From NCBI RefSeq assembly GCF_037126435.1, contig NZ_CP147020.1, positions 4,477,001-4,541,000 of the forward strand: a DNA stretch of 64,000 nt, in the 5' to 3' direction. The number at the start of each line of letters is the position of its first letter. Within the stretch, counting starts at the first letter, position 1. The position numbers and the translations under genes are program-made. The stretch comes from Bernardetia sp. ABR2-2B. Its GTDB lineage: Bacteria; Bacteroidota; Bacteroidia; Cytophagales; Bernardetiaceae. Positions 1 to 9,840 of this stretch are shown here, in pieces. A model generated the notes under the pieces. That model ran no database searches. It had not been told where the DNA came from and saw only the letters and a list, made by a program, of their open reading frames with translations.

Positions 1-1182
1 ATTGATAAAAAAAATCAAAATACTTTATTTGAGTTTTCTTCTTTAGGAGTTTCTACAAATAGAGATGAATGGGTTTATGATTTTGATGAGAAAAGTTTAA
101 AGGATAAAATGAAGTATTTTGTAAAAGAATACAATAATCTTTTGAAGAAAAATGATAAATCTTGGAAAGGTACGATTAAGTGGAGCAGAGATTTAAAGAA
201 AAAATTTGAACGAAAACAAATACTAGAATTGCAAAATGATTTACTAGTAGAAAGTAACTATAGACCATTTATAAAAAAGAAATGGTATGCAGAAAAGGTA
301 TTGAATGATGTTTTTACACAAAACCATTATGATATTTTTGGAGAAGATTTACGACAAGAGAACAGATTGATAACTGTGTATAGTTTAGCATCATCTCACT
401 TACTTTCTTGTTTGTCTACGAATCTCAATTTTGATTTAGCTTTCTTAAAACAAGGTAATGGAGGTGTTTTTTGCCTCCCCCTCTACCGTTACACAAAAGA
501 AGGCAAAAGAATAGATAATATCACGCAATGGGCATTGAATGAATTTCGTAGTCATTATTCCGTAGGTTCGCAGCGTAGTGCGTCCGATGATTCCGTAGAT
601 TCGCACCGTCGTACGTATCAAAACACAGAGCCACACGACGGTATGGCTGTACGGGAATTGGAGCGTGAAGATATTTTTCATTATGTGTATGGCGTTCTGC
701 ACAATCCAGCGTACCGTAAAAAATATGAATTGAATCTAAAAAGGGAGTTTCCACGCATTCCATTTTATGAAGATTTTTGGTTTTGGGCAGAAAAAGGAAA
801 GGAATTAATGGAATTGCATCTTGATTATGAAAATATAGAAAAATATGAGTTAGAGCGAGAAGAAAAACCTCTCAAAAGTGGCAGTCTCAATAAAGCAAAA
901 CTCAAAGCCGACAAGATAAAAAATGAAATTGTTTTGGATAATCTGACCACGCTAAAAAATATCCCTGCTGTGGCTTGGGACTACAAATTGGGCAATAGAA
1001 GTGCGCTAGAGTGGATTCTTGACCAGTACAAAGAAAAGAAACCAAGAGATACAACGATTAGAGAAAAATTCAATACCTACAAATTTGAAGATTATAAAGA
1101 AGAAGTAATTGAATTGTTGCAGCGTGTTTGTACGGTAAGTGTAAAGACGATGAAGATTGTTGAGGAAATGGAATCCAAATAA
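1..1182 (+). CDS. Type ISP-like restriction-modification enzyme, C-terminal part (5' truncated by window edge)
   Basis: The frame is open from base 1, before the first ATG at 109, so this is the 3' end of a longer gene. The visible part carries the block NRDEWVYDFD followed by a YN-rich region, then PLYRYTKEGK, DIFHYVYGVLHNPAYR and RIPFYEDFWFWAEKGKELM. I recognise these as the target-recognition/C-terminal domain of type ISP and related single-chain helicase-methyltransferase restriction enzymes. The family cuts DNA after methylation-sensitive translocation; the nuclease, helicase and methylase domains would lie upstream of the window. Between the PLYRYTKEGK block and the DIFHYVYG block there is an in-frame insertion (about 558-654) made of the palindromic repeat also found beside and inside the neighbouring transposase gene. 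The insert adds a serine- and histidine-rich stretch without breaking the frame. Whether the enzyme still works is unknown. Confidence 0.72.
   Translation: MDKKNQNTLFEFSSLGVSTNRDEWVYDFDEKSLKDKMKYFVKEYNNLLKKNDKSWKGTIKWSRDLKKKFERKQILELQNDLLVESNYRPFIKKKWYAEKVLNDVFTQNHYDIFGEDLRQENRLITVYSLASSHLLSCLSTNLNFDLAFLKQGNGGVFCLPLYRYTKEGKRIDNITQWALNEFRSHYSVGSQRSASDDSVDSHRRTYQNTEPHDGMAVRELEREDIFHYVYGVLHNPAYRKKYELNLKREFPRIPFYEDFWFWAEKGKELMELHLDYENIEKYELEREEKPLKSGSLNKAKLKADKIKNEIVLDNLTTLKNIPAVAWDYKLGNRSALEWILDQYKEKKPRDTTIREKFNTYKFEDYKEEVIELLQRVCTVSVKTMKIVEEMESK
558..654 (+). repeat. RAYT-linked palindromic element inserted in frame in a coding region
   Basis: Two units starting TTCCGTAG lie 33 nt apart (558 and 591). 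The second, GTAGATTCGCACCGTCGTAC at 595, continues with TATCAAAACACAGAG and a right arm with CACGACGGT, ending CTGTACGG at 654. This matches the intergenic copy at 1208-1266 almost base for base over its left arm and loop. The 33-nt offset keeps the reading frame. Confidence 0.8.
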
Positions 1183-1207: not shown

Positions 1208-1266
1208 GTAGATTCGCACCGTCGTGCGTATCAAAACACAGAGACGCACGACGGTGCGTCTGTACG
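1208..1266 (+). repeat. REP-like stem-loop next to the RAYT gene
   Basis: The arms CGCACCGTCGTGCGT (1215-1229) and ACGCACGACGGTGCG (1244-1258) are perfect 15-nt reverse complements around a 14-nt loop. GTAGATT on the left and TCTGTACG on the right extend the element. It lies in the short gap before the transposase gene and is the cleanest copy of the family in the window. Confidence 0.88.
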
Positions 1267-1290
1267 AATGAAATTAATTTTTAAGTGATT

Positions 1291-2109
1291 ATGGCAAAAT
1301 ATAAAGGAAAATATCGTTCAGAATCGCATCGTTTGAAAGGGTGGGATTATAGCAGTGAAGCAATTTATTTTATTACATTTTGTGTGCAAGATTTCGAATG
1401 TTTATTTGGCGATGTTATCGTAGATTCGCACCATCGTGCGAATCTTGAAAATAATGCGAATCCTAAAAATAATGAAATTCAGAATAATGAGATTCGGGAT
1501 AATGAGACGCACGACGGTGCGTCTGTACGGATATATGATGAATCTGCAAGAATGAATTTGAATCCGTTTGGGAAAATTGTAGAAGAAGAAATTCTAAAAT
1601 CAATAGAAATACGAAATAATTGGATATTTCACGAATGGGTAGTGATGCCCAATCATGTGCATATGCTGATAGAAATTGAATTTAATGATAATAATACCGT
1701 ACAGACGCACCGTGGTAAGTCTCAAAATAAAAATAATACAATTCACAACAATACGATTCATGACGATACGATTCACGACAATACAATTCACGACGGTGCG
1801 ATTCACGACGGTGCGATTCACGACGGTGCGATTCACGACGGTGCGATTCACGACGGTGAATCGCTACTACATCGCCAACCCAATTCTATTTCTTCATTTA
1901 TCGGAATCTTCAAAACCGTCGTAACAAAACAAATAAACGAATTACGTAATACAAAAGGTGAAAGAATATGGCAACGCAACTATCACGACCACATCGTTAG
2001 AAATTATCGTTCTTTTCAAAAAATAGCCAACTACGTTGACCAAAACCCTCAACGTTGGTATGAAGACCGATTTAATCCTACTAAAAAAGACAATAATAAA
2101 GGAAACTAA
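1291..2109 (+). CDS. REP-associated tyrosine transposase (RAYT, Y1/HUH transposase) with internal repeat expansions
   Basis: A single-strand DNA transposase of the IS200/RAYT type. The family core is readable: an N-terminal YRSESHRLKGWDYSSEAIYF block with ITFCVQ, then the HUH-type motif in MPNHVHMLIEI, and near the C-terminus ERIWQRNYHDHIVRNYRSF, which should hold the catalytic tyrosine, and YVDQNPQRW. RAYTs are usually shorter than this 272-residue protein. The excess comes from two stretches that are translated copies of the palindromic repeat: one between FGDV and the NPFGK block (DNA 1420-1530) and one after the HUH motif (DNA 1699-1868) ending in eight IHDGA-like pentapeptides. I chose ATG 1291; a GTG two codons upstream is also possible. 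RAYTs are normally domesticated and mobilise or maintain REP palindromes rather than themselves. Confidence 0.85.
   Translation: MAKYKGKYRSESHRLKGWDYSSEAIYFITFCVQDFECLFGDVIVDSHHRANLENNANPKNNEIQNNEIRDNETHDGASVRIYDESARMNLNPFGKIVEEEILKSIEIRNNWIFHEWVVMPNHVHMLIEIEFNDNNTVQTHRGKSQNKNNTIHNNTIHDDTIHDNTIHDGAIHDGAIHDGAIHDGAIHDGESLLHRQPNSISSFIGIFKTVVTKQINELRNTKGERIWQRNYHDHIVRNYRSFQKIANYVDQNPQRWYEDRFNPTKKDNNKGN
1420..1530 (+). repeat. Expanded copy of the RAYT palindrome inside the RAYT gene
   Basis: It starts GTAGATTCGCACCATCGTGC and ends with the right arm GACGCACGACGGTGCGTCTG then TACGG. The normal 14-nt loop is replaced by a run of AATAATGAGATTC-like units that encode repeats of the type NNEI. The reading frame is kept. 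Confidence 0.8.
1699..1868 (-). repeat. Inverted copy of the RAYT palindrome with 8 tandem 15-nt units inside the RAYT gene
   Basis: The left edge GTACAGACGCACCGT is the reverse complement of the right edge of the other copies, and the right end GGTGAATCGCTAC resembles the reverse complement of GTAGATTCGCACC. The interior from 1741 to 1860 is eight consecutive 15-nt units of ATTCACGACGGTGCG. Units 4-7 are identical; units 1-3 and 8 are diverged. Each unit encodes IHDGA or a variant. Confidence 0.85.
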
Positions 2110-7433: not shown

Positions 7434-8759
7434 TTATTTCACAAATTCCCAAGCAAAACTTTGCCCTTTGTGTTCGACAGCAATTTTATTTACAGCACCA
7501 GACGAATAATCAACTGCTCCTTCATATTTATTTTTATCTTTTTGATTGAGCAAAACAGAATTAACTTTTAATCCATTTGTGATGTGTTTTTCAATGCGAT
7601 AATGAAGCGTTGTAGAAAGTGAAGTAGAGGTGTTTTCAGGATACCAACCACGAATTACATCAACAAAGGCAACCAAACTTTCTCCTTGTTCTGTTTTGGT
7701 AGCAAGTCGAACAAAATTATTGATAATTTCTGAACTTTCTACTTCTAGTTCTATCTCCAAATCATTCTCTAAAAAACGATGAGCTAATAGCTTTTTGTTT
7801 GTTTCATTTAAGTTTGGAAACTGTACTCCTGATTGCTCGGCGTAAGTAATAGCTGTTTCATTTCCATTTTCCAAAAGCATTTTTCCTTCATAACTATTCT
7901 GTTCTGATTTCTCAAAACGCACTTTCTCTATTGTTTTGACACCATATTTTTTCTTCATTACGTATTCAAAATAGCTTGAAACAGTTTCTTTGTCATGCTT
8001 CGGAAAAACACCTTTTTTGGGATCAAGAGTTAAAAGAATTTCGCTTCCAGTATCCGTAGTAACAAGAGCATCAAAAGTATTTCCAACAGTTGGAGTGAGT
8101 TTTACTTCTTCTGTTGGAATCCCCATGGATTTGATTAGGTAACGTTTTGTACTTGATTCTAAAATTTCTTTCCAAATAGGTTTCAGAATGCCCGACTTGT
8201 CTCTTCCTGCTCTTACAAAAATAGTGGCAGTAGGTAATGAAGTATCTTCAAAGGTGGTTTGGGCTAAATAAACCCATTCGTCATCTGTGATAGAAGGAGT
8301 TCTTTCTAAATGAATAGTCTCTTTAATGTCTCCCCAATGCTCTTTTTCAAGAGTAAGTTTAGTTACTTTCTGCTCAAAGGCTTTTTCTATTTCAGGCTGT
8401 AAAAAAACTTCTATCTGTTCTTGGTCTGATTTTGCTTTGTCTTTCGGAATAAATTTCTGAATTATGTTATCTTTTGTCAAAATAAGTGTGTCTCCTTTAA
8501 AATCAAATTGATAACTATCAGAAATTCCAAGAGCCATTACTTTTAATGTGTTTTCATTGATTTCGAATTCTTTTTCTGTAATATTATCAAAAATTATCTT
8601 TTCATCTGTAACTTTGAGCGTACTTTTATAATCCGAACGCACCCATTGTCCTTCTAACTGGGAAGAGTCAGAACAACTACTCAAAAAAATAAACCCTAAG
8701 AAACTTCCTATATAAAATAGTTTTGAAAGAGAGTTAGAATATGTATGTTTGAATTTCAT
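7434..8759 (-). CDS. Lipoprotein of unknown function
   Basis: A 441-residue protein with a lipoprotein signal: positively charged start, hydrophobic segment, and lipobox LSSC with C29 as the acylated residue. A Ser/Asp rule residue follows (CSDSS), and export to the outer membrane is plausible. After the signal comes QLEGQWVRSDYKSTLKVTDEKIIF, which looks like a lipocalin-type 'cost of substitution' start seen in many Bacteroidota lipoproteins. The remainder is made of lysine- and glutamate-rich beta-like segments with no motif I recognise. It is alone between miaB and lspA, with a minus-strand -7-like box at 8822-8829 (TACTTTTG on the coding strand). Function unknown. Confidence 0.7.
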   Translation of the reverse strand: MKFKHTYSNSLSKLFYIGSFLGFIFLSSCSDSSQLEGQWVRSDYKSTLKVTDEKIIFDNITEKEFEINENTLKVMALGISDSYQFDFKGDTLILTKDNIIQKFIPKDKAKSDQEQIEVFLQPEIEKAFEQKVTKLTLEKEHWGDIKETIHLERTPSITDDEWVYLAQTTFEDTSLPTATIFVRAGRDKSGILKPIWKEILESSTKRYLIKSMGIPTEEVKLTPTVGNTFDALVTTDTGSEILLTLDPKKGVFPKHDKETVSSYFEYVMKKKYGVKTIEKVRFEKSEQNSYEGKMLLENGNETAITYAEQSGVQFPNLNETNKKLLAHRFLENDLEIELEVESSEIINNFVRLATKTEQGESLVAFVDVIRGWYPENTSTSLSTTLHYRIEKHITNGLKVNSVLLNQKDKNKYEGAVDYSSGAVNKIAVEHKGQSFAWEFVK

Positions 8760-9078: not shown

Positions 9079-9840
9079 ATGAAATATCTACCTTATTTTC
9101 TCATTGCGCTAGGCGTAATTCTTATTGACCAAGCTCTCAAATTATATATTCATTCTATACTTTCTTTGGGTGAAGATATTCACGTTTTTGGAGATTGGTT
9201 TAAGCTTCATTACACACTCAACCCTGGAATGGCGTTTGGCATTACGTTAGGTTCTGACTATGGAAAGCTTATCTTGACAGTTTTTAGAATTTTTGCAGGA
9301 ATAGGAATTGCTTTCGTAATGGCTCGTGCTGCGTTGCGTGATGCTCCAAAAGGATTTGTTTTTAGTATGGCTCTTATTTTAGGTGGAGCGTTTGGAAATA
9401 TTGTAGATTCTACTTTTTATGGCGTTTTTATAGAAGGAAATGCTGTTCCGATGTATGGAAATGAACCTAGTTTTTATCCTTGGTTTCACGGACAGGTAAT
9501 TGATATGTTCTATTTTGATATTGCTTCAGGCTATTTTCCAGATAATTTACCTTTTATTGGTGGCGACCATTATTCTTTCTTTCCTATTTTTAATATTGCT
9601 GATGCAGCTATTTTTATTGGAGTTTGTATTATCTTAATTTGGCAAAAGCGTTTCTTTCCAAGAGAAGAAATTGTAGAAACAGAAATTGAAAAAGCTTTAG
9701 AAGACGAACTCAGAGAAGAGAATACAGGAGAGAATACAGAAGAAAATATAGAAACAAAAGAAGTGAAGTCTAATGGAGATACAAACGTATTTTTAGCAGG
9801 AGAAAGTGATATAAGCAAAGATGAAATAAAAGGAAATTAG
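9079..9840 (+). CDS. lspA: Lipoprotein signal peptidase (signal peptidase II)
   Basis: An inner-membrane aspartic protease that removes signal peptides from diacylated prolipoproteins; the window contains several likely substrates. Four transmembrane segments are visible. The catalytic aspartates are in GGAFGNIVDS (D110) and FNIADAAIF (D175). The periplasmic loop between them is long (about 45 residues), as in Bacteroidota homologues. At 253 residues it is longer than the 160-210 usual for the family because of an acidic, Glu/Asn-rich cytoplasmic tail (about residues 200-253) of unknown role. The gene is followed at once by a strong terminator. Confidence 0.95.
   Translation: MKYLPYFLIALGVILIDQALKLYIHSILSLGEDIHVFGDWFKLHYTLNPGMAFGITLGSDYGKLILTVFRIFAGIGIAFVMARAALRDAPKGFVFSMALILGGAFGNIVDSTFYGVFIEGNAVPMYGNEPSFYPWFHGQVIDMFYFDIASGYFPDNLPFIGGDHYSFFPIFNIADAAIFIGVCIILIWQKRFFPREEIVETEIEKALEDELREENTGENTEENIETKEVKSNGDTNVFLAGESDISKDEIKGN

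Follow-up and report, generated by a model that had tools for sequence, protein, structure and literature searches.

The locus

The window, i.e. the whole 64,000-nucleotide stretch of the Bernardetia sp. ABR2-2B genome (G000) analysed here, opens with the 3' half of a type ISP restriction-modification gene that is split. This half, the specificity part (1..1182, + strand; Type_ISP_C, 245.1 bits), starts 5' of the window, at G000:C1:4476824, and the 5' half of the gene carries the ISP_coupler and methylase domains. On the same strand follows a RAYT (TnpA_REP) gene (1291..2109), read from the ATG at 1291 or the alternative GTG at 1285; translation gives a frame that is open over the whole ORF, of 272 or 274 aa respectively. 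The product is a Y1 (HuH) transposase. It scores 29.5 bits in a profile search with Pfam Y1_Tnp, above the cut-off of 23, and 62.1 bits with NCBIfam REP_Tyr_transpos (NF047646), under the cut-off of 80 and with the match split into two stretches. The E. coli TnpA_REP 4er8 is the sole PDB sequence matching it at E up to 0.01 (E 1.2e-4). The HuH motif, H122-V-H124, lies at 1654-1662 and the putative catalytic tyrosine, Y248, at 2032-2034, the latter placed from the columns of alignment A5. A first-pass annotation had called the transposase at 1291 a RAYT; the Y1_Tnp score, the 4er8 match and the NHVH and WQ motifs bear this out.

Several traits are those of RAYT subclass 2.4. Its motifs NH[IFV]H and WQ are present as NHVH and WQRNYHDH; the invariance of HuH and WQ in A5 (38 rows) is no test of this, since the rows were chosen by those motifs. 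The tyrosine motif, YIxNNP in the subclass, reads YVDQNP here and YIDQNP in the G001 and G004 orthologues: Y and NP are kept and the first N is changed to Q. REP-like hairpins lie in frame between HuH and Y (units 1699-1722 and 1844-1867). Judged from its sequence, the RAYT module probably belongs to subclass 2.4 (Bertels group 4): two 24-nt REP hairpins in inverted orientation, with the RAYT gene after them. In the REPtron sense of Nunvar et al., only an upstream pair is present at the RAYT locus. No REP unit was found 3' of the RAYT gene in the window, nor within 700 nt 3' of it in G000, G001 or G004; the next units are 740 nt (G001) and 749 nt (G004) away, both inside the ISP gene. A plasmid or phage carrier was considered and rejected: plasmids gave 2 weak matches (24.0% and 36.5% identity), phages none, and a scan of IMG/VR for close relatives none.

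REP pairs inside and beside the RAYT gene

Each 24-nt unit has a stem of 8 bp, closed by a loop of 4 nt, on a GTA[G/C] foot, and each palindrome is made of two such units with the feet outward, one GTAG and one GTAC. The upstream pair (58 nt, 1208..1265, + orientation) has its units at 1208-1231 (+, GTAG) and 1242-1265 (-, GTAC), separated by a spacer at 1232-1241. At internal site 1, between the FG and HuH motifs, a second pair in + orientation (1420..1528) has units at 1420-1443 (+, GTAG) and 1505-1528 (-, GTAC), with tandem units of 18 nt (1437-1474) and 15 nt (1468-1507) between them. The distance from FG to HuH is 78 aa here, as against 37 aa in 51 of the 66 RAYT ORFs surveyed below, eight of which reach at least 50 aa in this segment. 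At internal site 2, between HuH and WQ, the pair is inverted (1699..1867, - orientation), with units at 1699-1722 (+, GTAC) and 1844-1867 (-, GTAG) around an array of a 15-nt unit (1736-1858, peptide IHDGA). Motif spacing, the published model and the dN/dS values given below lead us to infer that both sites are in loops.

Repeat finding delimits the palindrome at 1207-1266, copies at 1416-1532 and an inverted copy with a 15-nt array at 1695-1871. Allowing up to 3 mismatches, the motif GTAGATTCGCACCGTCGTGCG occurs 6 times in the window for 0.00 expected; allowing up to 2, CACGACGGTGCG occurs 13 times for 0.36 expected. These counts, far over chance, and the repeat finding agree with the earlier claim that the palindromes inside the ORF are copies of the one beside the gene. 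It was likewise right that the copies keep the frame, the ORF being open throughout, and that the spacers are enlarged by short tandem units (18-nt and 15-nt arrays at site 1, a 15-nt array at site 2).

The same annotation had overlooked single units elsewhere in the genome, described below, and three in-frame units in the upstream ISP gene (562..652, + strand): 562-585 (+), 595-618 (+) and 629-652 (-). The segment 595-652 is a 90% copy of the 58-nt upstream pair, with an identical 10-nt spacer. The number of units at this ISP site is one in G004, two in G001 and three in G000; the unsplit ISP gene of G006 has no unit at the corresponding site. The feet of locus units are GTAG in 13 of 24 cases and GTAC in 11, and dispersed units also have GTAA. 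CGTC occurs as a loop, the feet of the units examined being mostly GTA[GCA].

In G000 the junction of the split ISP gene is occupied by a different gene (L102, 5755-6825, 5' of the window), with MPNHYH, which resembles a HuH motif, read by eye and no Pfam match. It is flanked by three 117-nt repeats with inverted arms and is a second, unrelated occupant of the site.

Orthologues in the genus

Among the 98 genomes searched, that of the window included, close RAYT orthologues occur only in G001 and G004, of the same genus (80-83% identity in matched segments, 83% over the alignment). Both orthologues have REP pairs at both internal sites, with shorter spacers; the window copy is the longest of the three, its spacers being longer by whole codons. 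In all three known copies the pairs at the two positions of the RAYT ORF have opposite orientations and consist of one GTAG and one GTAC unit. As all three carry pairs at both sites, these pairs were already in place when the RAYT copies diverged. Site 1 of the window, as we read it, holds a second right-hand unit beside the apparent remains of the older one. In G005 no RAYT orthologue was found in the 460-contig assembly, despite about 15 REP units.

Linker hairpins in a survey of RAYT genes

The survey comprised 66 distinct RAYT ORFs that passed a motif filter (loci L018-L094 and L137-L206, and the window); they were found by RAYT queries and are thus a non-random sample, from which ORFs failing the filter are left out. 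A hairpin with GT[AG]G feet is present in the linker from HuH to WQ in 37 of the 66. Codon shuffles gave a mean of 0.15 (maximum 1 in 20) and synonymous shuffles a mean of 2.4 (maximum 5). The other 29, including the G004 orthologue, have no linker hairpin under the strict criterion. The segment before HuH has a hairpin in 3 of the 66.

Tandem arrays were identified by TRF (score at least 40, best array per site). They were found at 26 sites: 22 at site 2, four at site 1 and none elsewhere in the ORFs. Their periods are divisible by 3 in 23 of the 26 cases; the exceptions (L040, L072 and L079) are weak arrays of about 2 copies, with L072 counted among the site 1 arrays. Both sites carry arrays in the window, in L026 (G007) and in L027 (G084); the last two RAYTs come from another genus and another family, and their arrays are large, those at site 1 measuring 18 nt x 8.6 and 39 nt x 9.5.

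The internal REP resembles a REP in its own 400-nt flanks (at least 0.70) in 17 of the 37 ORFs and falls below 0.70 in 20. Wrongly placed start codons may make this comparison overlook REPs that lie upstream (as in L054). The own flank scores better than the flanks of the 60 other loci compared in 11 of the 37, one of them at only 0.63. Insertion of the gene's own REP therefore lacks this support in the 20 below 0.70.

A general association of RAYT genes with type ISP genes was also considered and rejected: among the 66 loci a motif scan, in which many loci had short flanks, found it only for the window, L018 and L019.

Hairpin DNA or protein feature

We aligned 24 units from three species, gap-free. 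The units were begun by hand at GTA, which makes the invariance of GTA a matter of choice, and the alignment excludes the foot-less tandem units of the spacers and of the upstream arrays in G001 and G004. Stem cells are in standard pairs in 90.3% of cases over the 24 units, against 16-49% in slid controls. Cells changed on both sides number 31, against 8.2 in shuffles, and the covariation score is 0.528 against 0.168; as the units share ancestry, these covariation figures are descriptive and overstated. The 18 coding units alone give 88.9% pairing and 28 both-side changes against 8.2. On two of the five covariation measures the units do not stand out from the shuffles: the pairs with a both-side change (5 against 4.5, equalled or exceeded by 246 of 500 shuffles) and the further pair types (13 against 11.1, 65 of 500). 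Some units have lost pairs: the left unit of site 1 keeps 5 of 8 in G001 and G004, and the left unit of site 2 keeps 6, 7 and 6 of 8 in G000, G001 and G004.

For the RAYT core, dN is 0.042 and dS 0.896 in the comparison of G000 with G001 (dN/dS 0.047), and dN/dS is again 0.047 for G000-G004. For the inserts the G000-G001 comparison gives pN 0.244 and pS 0.219 over 53 codons, dN/dS being 1.14; the ratio is 1.37 for G000-G004 and 0.55 for G001-G004, the last from 7 changes only. The core of the RAYT is under strong purifying selection, and the inserts are much less so. The alignment shows most of the predicted 24-nt hairpins retaining their stems through paired substitutions while the encoded protein drifts. 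The inserts act mostly as DNA, and protein constraint falls outside them.

One could propose that the inserts are functional extensions of the protein, the palindromes being a by-product of amino-acid repeats. They are indeed translated with the frame intact in three species, and the ratio of 0.55 between G001 and G004 permits mild constraint. This explanation is nevertheless very improbable: synonymous shuffles keep the protein and lose most of the hairpins (mean 2.4 of 66 against 37), the two wider comparisons give ratios of 1.14 and 1.37, and the same DNA unit encodes different peptides in its two orientations.

Another explanation makes the internal hairpins functional, as sites of self-recognition or autoregulation by which the RAYT, or else a hairpin in the RAYT mRNA, would limit RAYT expression or mark the RAYT gene. 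The retention of stems through paired changes in three species favours it, as does the occurrence of hairpins in the same linker in 37 of 66 RAYT ORFs, 20 of these 37 without a similar REP (at least 0.70) in the 400-nt flanks. Silent divergence between G000 and G001 is also lower in the inserts (pS 0.219) than in the core (0.523). In the G001-G004 comparison, however, insert dS is not lower (0.070 against 0.054), and recent turnover fits the low divergence equally well. Several units (site 1 left, site 2 left) have lost stem pairs, the 29 ORFs without a linker hairpin by the strict criterion include the G004 orthologue, and the family also occurs in unrelated genes. We consider this explanation unlikely, though far less so than a protein extension.

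The REP family across the genome and the genus

BLAST with a 67-nt query found the family only at the RAYT locus, and BLAST over the genus gave the same impression. Confinement of the REPs to the locus was nevertheless overturned by a covariance model of the 24-nt unit, partly trained on the nine locus units, which gave seven further units. At E up to 0.011, G000 has at least 16 units, nine at the locus and seven elsewhere. We scored 150 of 458 candidates in G000, and 150 of 303 to 538 per genome, so that counts and absences are bounds. G005 C210 and C195, G003 C24, G004 C108:3524 and C109, and G000 candidates with E above 0.02 were excluded from classification; G005 C162 is doubtful, having a GAAG foot.

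Twelve of the 16 G000 units are in frame inside ORFs. Five of the seven dispersed units are so, in a MarR-like regulator, an ORF at 3036915, an epimerase-like ORF (two units) and the linker of MetRS; the other two are outside ORFs, at 3527855 and at 553960, the latter judged to be ahead of the valS start. These gene names (MarR-like, epimerase-like, MetRS, valS) are what we take the genes to be from reading their sequences by eye. All sense coding units of G000 (9 of 9) are read in the frame that has GTA as a codon, and a single phase is common to the three antisense units of the locus.

G005 has about 15 units at E below 0.02 among its 150 scored candidates; in G002 and G006 nothing better than E 4 was found among 150 scored of 402 and 398. 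The linker of MetRS (L233-L238) has a unit in G000 and G005, and is rich in E, K and Q in G001, G002, G003 and G004. The REP-bearing linker has a net gain of one codon relative to the REP-free orthologues; the REP seems there to have replaced DNA and not simply to have been added.

Some further placements were observed. A unit of the family lies just 5' of a tatD-like gene (named by eye) in three species of the genus (L223, L226, L227). In G005, units are read in a different frame (SKDTQSCVLS, SKDAQSCIS) in a PARP-like gene and two R-M-like genes (L218, L220, L222; names by eye). A type ISP gene of G005 (L215, G005:C105), with a 1001-aa frame, has eleven REP-like units, each of 27-30 nt, arrayed in frame in its C-terminal part, at about 2420-2740.

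The first-pass annotation had named two outcomes that would speak against its reading, namely homologues whose linkers are unlike the palindrome and a genome with no other copies. Neither was found: the orthologues have the same palindromes at the same sites, and seven further units exist at E up to 0.011.

Origin of the inserts

Copies could also arise with no transposition at all, by local duplication or exchange of hairpin-prone DNA through replication slippage and template switching, without the RAYT. Such a process fits the growth of the spacers by tandem units, the mosaic make-up of REP units at the ISP site, and the position of the near-full-length pair copies found by BLAST, all within 1.3 kb. 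It accounts poorly for single units at distant loci in the genus, which were not found among the scored candidates of G002 and G006, for pairs that keep the GTAG/GTAC build in both orientations, and for a linked RAYT that retains a constrained core. It seems to us somewhat less likely even than functional hairpins.

We favour, as the probable explanation, that the RAYT itself copied REP pairs, also into its own gene, and that insertions in loops survived and lengthened, so that the inserts are passengers and not a feature of the protein. The enzyme would act on single-stranded DNA, as does E. coli TnpA_REP, and copy REP pairs into DNA, its own gene among the targets. Insertions that fell in frame into two tolerant loops would have survived. 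The inserts would later have been lengthened by slippage among the repeats and by mosaic exchange among units, and would be kept as hairpins by turnover within the family. The first-pass annotation had proposed self-insertion with in-frame growth; its copies, its frame and the tandem growth of the spacers stand, and the process itself is a reconstruction from three species.

Did the module move?

In G001 and G004 the RAYT gene separates the 5' and 3' halves of the type ISP gene: TAG within the GTAG foot terminates the 5' half, and the stop codon of the RAYT overlaps the start codon (ATG) of the 3' half. In G000 the RAYT gene sits 3' of the end of the ISP gene. Between G001 and G004, the former compared with what is apparently a metagenome-assembled genome (bin), the RAYT has a dS of 0.057 (7 changes over 126.5 silent sites). 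For the ISP gene dS is 0.472 over the last 150 codons of the 5' half, and 0.45 over the first 60 and 0.788 over the last 120 of the 3' half; other genes give 0.576 (MetG), 0.489 (TatD), 0.544 (Tex) and 0.628 (histidine kinase). The module is thus about 8 to 14 times below the flanks and other genes (0.45-0.79), and the RAYT differs from its two adjacent flanks with Fisher p 3e-8 and 7e-5. The core dS of 0.896 between G000 and G001 indicates that slow change is not a general property of the RAYT. G001 and G004 differ in how many upstream tandem units they have, which speaks against simple contamination.

A fit with two breakpoints delimits the close block at 8692-9525 of L103 (within 3 lnL, 8690-8744 and 9418-9556), with its ends close to the REP foot (8697) and the RAYT stop (9516-9518). 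The successive segments of L103 have mismatch rates of 10.6%, 2.0% and 8.5%. With a longer right flank the right break fell at 9710, inside the diverged part that encodes specificity, and the shorter flank was used; the left break was 8692 both times.

The low divergence of the module points to recent movement, possibly as a discrete insertion or as a short-tract exchange. A broader proposal, which we hold tentatively and find rather doubtful, is that the REP pair and the RAYT form a mobile element that entered, or was exchanged at, the junction of ISP methylase and specificity parts in G001 and G004 long after the split of these species, and that has another position beside the ISP gene in G000. 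The REP foot would be its left end and the RAYT frame would run into target DNA at the right; the coding REPs would then be a family akin to Rickettsia palindromic elements (RPE), with a known enzyme.

Comparison with known systems

In REPINs, reportedly described by Bertels and Rainey in 2011, and in BIMEs, two inverted REPs form one unit. The inverted pair is likewise a unit here, made of two subtypes; unlike REPINs or BIMEs, the copies are few and mostly in coding DNA. Canonical REPs bear a hairpin with a GT[AG]G foot, whereas 11 of the 24 locus units have GTAC. Canonical REPs also have many copies, mainly extragenic, and here we count at least 16 units, 12 of 16 in ORFs. RPE are short palindromes that lie in frame inside many protein genes, and the present units resemble them in this respect. 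They differ from RPE, whose end is CGTC according to the available text of Di Nocera et al. 2013 (PMC3733652), in their GTAG, GTAC or GTAA feet and in being linked to a RAYT.

The same text describes intragenic GTAG and CGTC REPs, including some in DNA-repair and tRNA-synthetase genes, and names Bacteroidetes for the CGTC repeats and not for the GTAG repeats. As in those REPs, a GTAG foot gives a neighbouring ORF its TAG stop in G001 and G004; in contrast to them, as they are mostly intergenic, 12 of the 16 G000 units are in ORFs.

The first-pass annotation could not recall a description of self-insertion with in-frame growth. In-frame REPs within tnpAREP genes of subclass 2.4 are, however, already reported in the portions of Quentin et al. 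2018 (PMC6006769) that we could draw on. The likeness extends, in these portions, to NHVH and WQ, to the Y..xNP motif, and to in-frame REPs from HuH to Y with repeats that vary the length of the gene. Set against them, the present system differs by a second internal site, before HuH and with arrays, by the want of a close downstream REP and by GTAC-foot partners. The titles and opening lines of abstracts that were found make no mention of a second internal site or of discrete movement of a RAYT module; most subscription papers and supplements lay outside that scope. The finding is sound, though its kind is already known. It adds the second site, growth restricted to both REP sites, a family resident largely in coding DNA, and the apparent movement of a module.

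The locus offers a concrete system for asking whether RAYTs still move REPs and themselves. A mostly coding REP family beside its likely cognate enzyme bears on how coding palindromes like those of Rickettsia spread. Finally, in what is available of Quentin et al. 2018 (PMC6006769), class 2 RAYTs are considered domesticated, with no evidence of gene mobility; the sharp break in divergence at the REP foot contrasts with this view.
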